A DNA stretch of 64,000 bases from Cyanobacterium stanieri LEGE 03274 (GTDB taxonomy: Bacteria > Cyanobacteriota > Cyanobacteriia > Cyanobacteriales > Cyanobacteriaceae): assembly GCF_015207825.1 (NCBI RefSeq), contig NZ_JADEWC010000006.1, forward strand, positions 1 through 64,000. The letters are read 5' to 3'. Under the pieces are notes generated by a model. The model did no database searches and had not been told where the DNA came from. It saw only the letters and a program-made list of their open reading frames with translations. Of this stretch, positions 58,814 through 59,992 are shown in pieces (position 1 is the first letter of the stretch; each line of letters starts with the position of its first letter). The position numbers were made by a program, and so were the translations under genes.

Positions 58814-58998
58814 GAACAATAAATAATCTAACTATCATTATCCTATCTCCCTTACCTCTCATCTCCCTCCAACAACCCATTGTGTGATGACAGATTTTAG
58901 CTTTTCTTCCTTAAGAATCCTCACATCTAGTTTTCAACAAAAATACTAATCAAACAAGTGCGAGATGAATTACGGTCAAGGTTTATGGTATAATCCGA

Positions 58999-59275
58999 TC
59001 AAGCGGTGCTAGAGAGATGTAGCCGTAGTCAGCGAACTCCCCGTTGTATAAAGGCTAGAGACTACCTGTCAATCAATTAATTAATTAATTGATAGCCCCA
59101 ATGCCTCAATGTTCCTCTTGTAAGCAATAAGCGTAAATGAACAAAGGCGGGTGAAATCATTAAACAGAATTACTACCTTCGGAACGAGGGATAAAGCCTA
59201 TCGCCAGAAAGTAAGACTCAGTAATCTACGAAGATTAAAAAGCGTTTCTTTGGGTAGGAAGCCTACATCATAATC
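58999..59275 (+). ncRNA. Structured RNA candidate, possibly HEARO/IscB omega-RNA type without its ORF
   Basis: About 277 nt after a TATAAT box (58989-58994). Pairings seen: GTAGTC (59025-59030) with GACTAC (59060-59065); AGCC (59021) with GGCT (59053), which would cross the former as a pseudoknot; a 22-bp AT palindrome (59072-59093) acting as a variable hairpin; GGCG (59147) with CGCC (59202); AATCT/AGATT (59223-59236); and GTAGG-AAG-CCTAC (59253-59265). The segment GTCAGCGAACTCCCCGTTG resembles, from memory, the conserved part of HEARO RNAs that accompany IscB nucleases. No IscB/HNH frame follows; hisG does. tmRNA, RNase P RNA, 6S and group I intron signatures were looked for and not found. 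Confidence 0.45.
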
Positions 59276-59338
59276 TTTGATTTGGTGTGTGGTAGTTCAC
59301 TTAATAATTGGTTGAGTCACCATTGCAAAAGTAAATCC

Positions 59339-59992
59339 ATGTTAACGATCGCACTTCCTAAAGGCGCATTATTAAAAGACAGTATCGAACTATGCCAAAA
59401 AGCAGGGCTAGATTTTAGCTTATTTTTATCATCTAGTAACCGTCAACTACAAATAGAAGATCCCACGGGGGTAGCCAAAGCCTTATTGGTAAGGGCCCAA
59501 GATGTTCCGGTATATGTAGAATATGGTCAAGCCCATCTTGGTATTGCCGGTTTTGATGTCCTCAAGGAAAAGAAAGCCAATATCGCACACCTAGCGGATT
59601 TGGGATTTGGTTATTGTCGTATGTCTGTGGCAGTGCCAAAGGATAGCCCCTACCGTAAATCCATTGATTTACCTGCCCATGGTATCGTGGCTTCAAAATT
59701 TGTTAACTGTGCCAAGGAACATTTTCGGGCTTTAGATTTACCTGTGGAGATTGTACCCCTCTACGGCTCGGTAGAATTGGGCCCGATTACGGGGATGTCA
59801 GAGGCGATCGTGGATTTGGTTTCTACGGGCAAAACCCTACGGGAAAATGGTTTGATTGAAATAGATGTTCTCTTTGAAAGTAGCGCCTATCTGGTGGCGA
59901 ATCCCCTTCTCTATCGTCTTAACCGTGATAATATTGCTGATTTTGTGGAACAAATGACGGTTAACAATGGACAATTGACAATGGGCAATTGA
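59339..59992 (+). CDS. hisG: ATP phosphoribosyltransferase, short (HisZ-dependent) form
   Basis: First enzyme of histidine synthesis, condensing ATP and PRPP, 217 aa from the ATG at 59339 ([20 protein letters not shown]); an upstream in-frame ATG at 59282 is not used by the family. Motifs are [30 protein letters not shown] and the PRPP loop [20 protein letters not shown]. The short length means it should need HisZ as regulatory partner, not seen here. The last 12 residues, [11 protein letters not shown] after EQM, are coded by the CAATGGACAATTGACAATGG tract, so the original stop has been lost into a repeat. Confidence 0.93.

Follow-up and report, generated by a model that had tools for sequence, protein, structure and literature searches.

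A 400-bp stretch upstream of hisG in the window (the whole 64,000-nt stretch of DNA analysed here) is, as judged by sequence comparison, a mobile element. We consider it likely to be a non-autonomous IS200/IS605-type element that has, in place of a tnpB gene, a promoter-like site together with an orphan guide RNA for TnpB, and that is served in trans. The guide RNA is called orphan because the element has no tnpB of its own, and the nuclease must therefore come from elsewhere; the element probably borrows TnpB from other elements in the cell. An earlier note on this DNA had marked 58989–59276 as a structured RNA that might be an orphan HEARO/IscB omega-RNA with its guide on the 5′ side. Those limits cut the element, whose true span is 58901–59300 and which ends 24 bases past the noted end.

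Borders, insertion and relatives of the element upstream of hisG

We placed the borders of the element (58901–59300, forward strand) from empty sites. In two sister genomes the site upstream of hisG is unoccupied and reads ..GATGACAGATTTTAG|TTAATAATTGG.. (G004, locus L137; G001, locus L138), and the window holds 400 bp between GATGACAGATTTTAG and TTAATAATTGG, with TTTAG (58896–58900, forward strand), the target motif or TAM, on the host side of the left junction and no target duplication. Reciprocally, the site occupied by the G004 copy is empty in the window's own genome (G000), again after TTTTAG. The downstream host gene hisG (59339–59992, forward strand; Pfam PF01634, E 4.5e-51) lies outside the element. 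The same unit, ~390–400 bp long, also occurs in other genomes of the genus; in G003 it is present at three unrelated sites, in copies that are identical over 394 bp.

A motif-free search of 51 distinct copies yielded 40 left ends (left anchor missing in 11) and 38 right ends (missing in 13, nine of which lie within 250 bases of a contig end). TTTAA or TTTAG precedes 36 of the 40 left ends (TTTAA 24, TTTAG 12, and GTTAG, GTTAA, ATTAA and ATTAG once each), and 32 of the 38 right ends read TCAC; four of the six others look like wrong anchors and two are CTTTAC and CTTCAA. Precise insertion 3′ of a short motif with no target duplication, seen at the two empty sites and in this tally, is a trait of IS200/IS605 elements. 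An earlier, motif-based count gave 47 placements, 27 of them with both ends, and its tallies of motif and right end are partly by construction because TTA[AG]C and TCAC were written into its search. The 27 both-ended elements are 382–588 bp long and have longest ORFs of 24–123 aa, with no tnpB encoded within or overlapping the same element. Lying within or overlapping a tnpB gene is a usual feature of a TnpB reRNA that is dispensable for the function claimed here. The earlier note called the marked stretch free of ORFs, which is confirmed insofar as the sole listed ORF of at least 40 aa inside it is one of 40 aa at 59151–59273.

The ends tie the element to tnpB carriers. Its left end (58901–58985, forward strand) contains an imperfect palindrome and is similar to that of L013, a tnpB element of G002, with 84% and 79% identity over 58895–58936 and 58965–59011, and the right end of L013 is near-identical to that of the element. 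In G423, a genome with a single TnpB match, the tnpB element (L127) and the orphan element both have the TAM TTTAA, and their left ends are identical in 93 of 111 alignment columns. Palindromic ends are thus common to the orphan elements and to the tnpB elements L013 and L127, a second IS200/IS605 trait. Short left-end matches (34–36 nt) also lie beside two Y1 tnpA loci of G120. Matches to Y1 TnpA were found in nine of ten genomes, with one in the window's own genome, a weak one in G003 and none in G423, so current mobility is doubtful in the last two. Around the sole Y1 transposase match of the own genome (L197, C2) lie numerous near-identical copies of a short repeat (..ATCGCCTCGTAATAAATTCCGAGGCTACGG..).

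As for candidate sources of TnpB, the own genome has seven PF07282 matches, and its tnpB at L002 has three Pfam OrfB domains and, by eye, the RuvC D/E/D motifs. All 32 genomes tested have TnpB, and 30 of them have the core of the orphan RNA, since G021 and G001 are among the 32; this co-occurrence is weak support because TnpB is very common in these genomes anyway and the comparison covers carriers chiefly. Single cyanobacterial genomes can hold very many PF07282 matches, with at least 139 in G188, at least 133 in G210 and at least 118 in G027.

A TnpB-type 3′ module and pseudoknot

The last ~100 nt of the element match, at the level of sequence and covariance models, the scaffold of a TnpB guide RNA (reRNA) and are homologous to the 3′ end of tnpB. 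The 14 elements behind our covariance model, R2, come from other lineages, include no RNA of the window's type and carry no tnpB in the interval from core to right end; they are 14 of the 17 rows of alignment A5, the near-duplicates L077, L100 and L101 being omitted. R2 matches 59197–59300 (forward strand; 37.2 bits, E 6.5e-7) and the match stops exactly where the element does; the next best match in the 64 kb has an E-value of 0.7. We then compared R2 with a tnpB set of 35 loci: 30 with PF07282, four further tnpB loci, and L052, where no tnpB is annotated (L017 and L131, both counted, represent a single gene). At E ≤ 1 the model matches 27 of the 35, with E-values (which are rough) below 0.001 at 15 loci, L052 included, and between 0.001 and 1 at 12; it gives no match in the remaining eight. 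At 18 loci the tnpB ORF was located, and R2 matches 14 of these, every match overlapping the 3′ end of the ORF. A blastn comparison agrees, the 3′ half of the window's element matching the 3′ end of tnpB in the own genome and in relatives. By both R2 and blastn, the element thus has a 3′ scaffold homologous to the tnpB 3′ end that terminates at the right end, as in a TnpB reRNA.

In two lineages, f2 and f55, the 3′ module is longer than in the window. A DNA search of 11 genomes found such long modules at 29 loci, with no adjoining tnpB at any of them (flanks up to 1.5 kb); the one tnpB match near f2 or f55 loci, at L144, lies about 0.6 kb off the element. R2 was built for this reason, and the assignment of a partner to f2 and f55 rests on the covariance model.

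A TnpB-type pseudoknot can form between 59182–59185 and 59295–59298. The first side is the loop of a hairpin, CCTTC-(GGAAC)-GAGGG (59176–59190, forward strand), which resembles a hairpin in tnpB tails; the second is GTTC (59295–59298, forward strand), which lies beside the predicted guide and can pair with the loop GAAC. All four pairs are formed in 32 of 32 scorable copies (33 copies, L026 being unscorable), compared with a mean of 12.2 and a maximum of 21 of 32 when ends were shuffled in 1000 trials. The paired states are GACA/TGTC (14 copies), GAAC/GTTC (11), GAAG/CTTC (5) and two wobble variants. The search demanded a hairpin of at least five pairs, a loop GG[AG]NN and an end [TG]TCAC; these patterns fixed two of the four pairs, so that just the other two could vary, and independent changes are few, because the states follow lineages. 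In the alignments both sides are 100% paired, with two-sided change at two of four pairs in A5 and at none of four in A4.

The same arrangement recurs in tnpB genes. Among tnpB tails chosen for a GTTCAC end, seven of seven (six distinct genes) have a hairpin with a loop that can pair with that end, in a search that printed pairing hairpins only; the tails with the like hairpin are L002, L013, L017/L131 (one gene), L127, L128 and L050. Pairing potential and covariation therefore link an upstream stretch to the bases beside the guide, and in the ISDra2 TnpB structure, as described in extracts of PMC10097598, the bases immediately ahead of the guide are paired to a stretch that lies about 100 nt upstream. 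RNAalifold paired the corresponding bases here with a GCG at the 5′ end; this pairing was dropped, since the loop-to-end pseudoknot explains those bases better.

A conserved 5′ domain with a promoter-like site

The TATAAT box remarked on in the earlier note is present at 58989–58994 and forms part of an extended −10 promoter-like site (TGG TATAAT; 58986–58994, forward strand), from which transcription would start at about 59001. A loose extended −10 motif (TGn?TAnnnT) stands at the same place in 39 of 46 distinct copies and is near-consensus in 18 of the 46, a tally made with no chance control. The predicted transcript is an orphan guide-RNA scaffold (59001–59300, forward strand) with two-sided changes in its predicted pairs. 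Among 12 window-type copies (alignment A4), pairing is kept through two-sided change at 12 of 45 predicted pairs; among 17 copies of other lineages (A5, 16 distinct) two-sided change is found at 34 of 51 predicted pairs. Scored over the whole RNA, A5 has 97.5% of cells paired and two-sided change at 33 of 48 pairs; none of 500 shuffles scored as high, and slid controls reached at most 12 such pairs. The share of paired cells is favoured because the structure was derived from that very alignment. L027 and L076, which have inserted sequence, and L054, whose end was not read, were omitted from the covariation alignments. The structured RNA that had been seen in the single sequence is real, since related sequences are conserved and covary.

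The conserved 5′ core (59019–59065, forward strand) consists of an invariant GTAGCCG and a stem, P1 (59025–59030/59060–59065), around a hairpin at 59032–59034/59042–59044. P1 pairs GTAGTC with GACTAC, is 100% paired in 15 distinct sequences and has two-sided change at three of six pairs. It is the half that held of a pseudoknot proposed earlier, in which AGCC/GGCT was to cross GTAGTC/GACTAC; the AGCC/GGCT pairing has no two-sided changes, with one pair broken in five and another in four of the 15 distinct rows. A proposed terminal hairpin GTAGG-AAG-CCTAC can be written, yet it is not kept across copies, because the CCTAC side varies (CCATC, TCAAC, CCAAC, CCCAC) at constant GTAGGAA. A second hairpin, P2 (CTGTCAAT / ATTGATAG; 59066–59095, forward strand; A4 columns 67–71/92–96), is paired in 12 of 12 A4 sequences, one pair showing two-sided change, one showing one-sided change and three being invariant. 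P2 contains an ATTAATTAATT repeat (59072–59093) that causes false blastn matches, and at this place the window's copy is 8 nt longer than those in G002–G004. Across 19 sequences the 5′ core has 29 invariant positions, and a search of 32 loci from the tnpB set did not detect it (best E 0.25). The 5′ half is thus a conserved domain that had no match in Rfam, and we infer that it replaces the body of tnpB, where it could serve RNA stability or folding, or the capture of TnpB. Among the matches listed in a search of the open-access PMC literature, no description of this RNA or its 5′ domain was found, and extracts of PMC10711439 and PMC11870625 held nothing on tnpB-less guide RNAs.

A search of the named genome collection with the core pattern found 37 stretches, every one of them cyanobacterial by its title, with carriers in Pseudanabaena, Crocosphaera, Microcystis, Microcoleus, Tychonema, Geitlerinema, Xenococcaceae, Pleurocapsales and others. 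Within the order we count 25 of 388 genomes where 29 were reported, because four (G021, G033, G220 and G299; L044, L046–L048) match only a low-complexity ATTAATTAAT repeat and were dropped; a sample of the class under stricter filters gave nine of 388. Viral contigs gave no match to the core pattern, and plasmid searches returned 1, 1, 0 and 2 records, all matching over 9–33% of the query.

Variant elements join other 5′ parts to the same 3′ module. L176 (1501–2060 in G324, minus strand) is tnpB-less and has the 3′ module (R2 E 4.2e-20) with a quite different 5′ part that the core model R1 does not match. A second tnpB-less type, in the window's genus (L011, L015 and L008), has the 3′ module (R2 E 1.7e-5 to 5e-4) and lacks the P1 core, and L011 and L015 have a common leader with ..ATGGC.ATAACCAAG... 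That one 3′ module is found with several kinds of 5′ module (L176; L011 and L015) suggests more than one origin. There are also deletion derivatives: L164, near position 1549, is almost just two joined ends, and L152 lacks most of the 5′ core.

The existence of L152 and L164 would suit a reading in which the element upstream of hisG is itself a decayed tnpB element or a passive MITE, its RNA-like sequence being a remnant of tnpB with no function of its own, and so would known ends-only PATEs, among which a PATE-like element of Halanaerobium retains the right end together with the final 58 nt of tnpB (extracts of PMC7290912). Decay is, however, hard to reconcile with two-sided changes in many RNA helices, with a promoter-like site kept in most copies and with 29 invariant positions in a core that went undetected when 32 loci of the tnpB set were searched, and we regard this reading as unlikely.

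Predicted guide, proposed working and known systems

The predicted guide of the orphan RNA is the 16 nt of host sequence that abut the right end (59301–59316, forward strand), TTAATAATTGGTTGAG in the hisG leader. We place it on the 3′ side because the 3′ module matches the TnpB scaffold, and the 3′ flank is guide-like because the sequence past the right end changes from site to site, with 32 different 16-nt flanks behind 33 right ends (counted after removal of records that agree in both core and flank). TAM and guide together, TTTAG-TTAATAATTGGTTGAG, recur without mismatch at both empty sites (G001 and G004). When up to three mismatches are allowed, they match the own genome only at the right junction of the element, where TTCAC stands in place of the TAM, and no TAM-bearing target was found there. 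By sequence, then, the RNA has the layout of a TnpB reRNA, with a 3′ guide taken from flanking DNA and a TAM 5′ of the target.

We propose that TnpA of another element would excise and insert the orphan element, and that TnpB made elsewhere in the cell would bind its transcript at the 3′ module and take the flanking 16 nt as guide. The resulting RNP would cut TAM plus target, which are present only after excision or where the element is absent, and repair from an intact copy would then restore the element, amounting to TnpB retention in trans by a protein-less element. Extracts of PMC8612924 describe a proposal of the same geometry, in which TnpB cuts the donor joint after excision and so restores the element. 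TnpB is able to make its guide from its own message (extracts of PMC10278001), and the orphan RNA would bypass the need for a guide made in this way.

The conserved 5′ domain could alternatively mean that the RNA guides a dedicated partner, for example a target-repressing, nuclease-dead relative of TnpB, which the 5′ domain would select. This would fit the lack of a detectable 5′ domain in the tnpB set and the two clades that, by DNA search, bear the same long 3′ module without tnpB. The module and pseudoknot are nevertheless common to tnpB tails, as are the ends in G423 and G002, and site-to-site differences in the flanks suit selfish retention better than regulation; a dedicated partner strikes us as improbable.

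A strongly conserved 5′ core might also be the ribozyme of a self-splicing or self-cleaving, IStron-like element, and at four loci joining the flanks gives a long frame in the same orientation (L006, 879 bases; L076, 951; L088, 495; L007, 369). The longest frame across joined flanks is, however, below 300 bases at 22 of 28 sites, counted with left ends that are crude and in some cases wrong (for example L024, L072 and L101), and Rfam gave no intron or ribozyme match, which makes such an element very unlikely. Two weak Rfam matches in the window, S414 (E 8.2) and mir-84 (E 4.5), were taken as chance. In 12 further loci (10 with the RNA, two with tnpB) Rfam gave nothing relevant, and two weak matches there (E 0.036 and 0.8) lie outside the elements and were likewise taken as chance.

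Orphan HEARO/IscB omega-RNAs are known, and the RNA here is alike in kind, being structured, orphan and free of any large ORF. What survives of that assignment is an orphan OMEGA-type guide RNA with no nuclease gene, open to use by a nuclease coded elsewhere; on this evidence, family and guide polarity do not survive. The HEARO model had no match at E ≤ 10 in the own genome (control genomes likewise gave none over the cut-off), nothing relevant in Rfam matched the window, the 3′ module is TnpB-type and the bases 5′ of the RNA are transposon sequence conserved in copies at different sites and so cannot be a site-specific guide, which leaves a HEARO RNA with a 5′ guide next to no chance.

With a TnpB guide RNA served in trans as the preferred reading, we tentatively entertain a broader one, to which we give somewhat less than even weight: a family of guide-RNA-only transposons, so far found in cyanobacteria only, may parasitise TnpA and TnpB of autonomous relatives, with the 5′ domain as a dedicated module that evolved in place of the tnpB frame and lets a free RNA compete in trans for TnpB. 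Because TnpB can cut its guide from the tnpB message, guide and nuclease are bound to a single element; a conserved guide-RNA-only element, if true, would show the nuclease shared and exploited in trans. Guide and nuclease became split on the way to CRISPR–Cas12, and natural, separately transcribed guide RNAs would be a model for that split. The role of the conserved 5′ domain is a directly testable question that this raises.

In kind the element is familiar, as a non-autonomous member of IS200/IS605; what sets it apart is a probable orphan TnpB guide RNA with a conserved 5′ domain. Meers et al. in 2023 are said to discuss PATEs together with TnpB. Like PATEs as described in extracts of PMC7290912, the element has palindromic left and right ends and no transposase gene and is thought to be mobilised in trans; unlike them, it has an interior made of a conserved, covarying RNA with a promoter-like site and occurs in several cyanobacterial families. 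The RAGATH-18-derived reRNAs of IS607 TnpB are likewise structured RNAs serving TnpB, but in extracts of PMC11061315 they belong to IS607 and lie beside tnpB, whereas the orphan RNA had no Rfam match. HEARO/IscB omega-RNA (RF02033) is also an OMEGA-type guide RNA of a mobile element, from which the orphan RNA differs in giving no match to the covariance model and in its predicted 3′ guide and TnpB-type 3′ module. The closest parallels are with the TnpB reRNA of ISDra2 (extracts of PMC8612924 and PMC10097598), in which the RNA likewise has its 3′ end at the right end, takes its guide from the flank, has the TAM 5′ of the target and has a pseudoknot between the pre-guide bases and a stretch ~100 nt upstream; unlike the ISDra2 reRNA, the orphan RNA does not come from a tnpB gene and has its own promoter-like site and an extra conserved 5′ domain.
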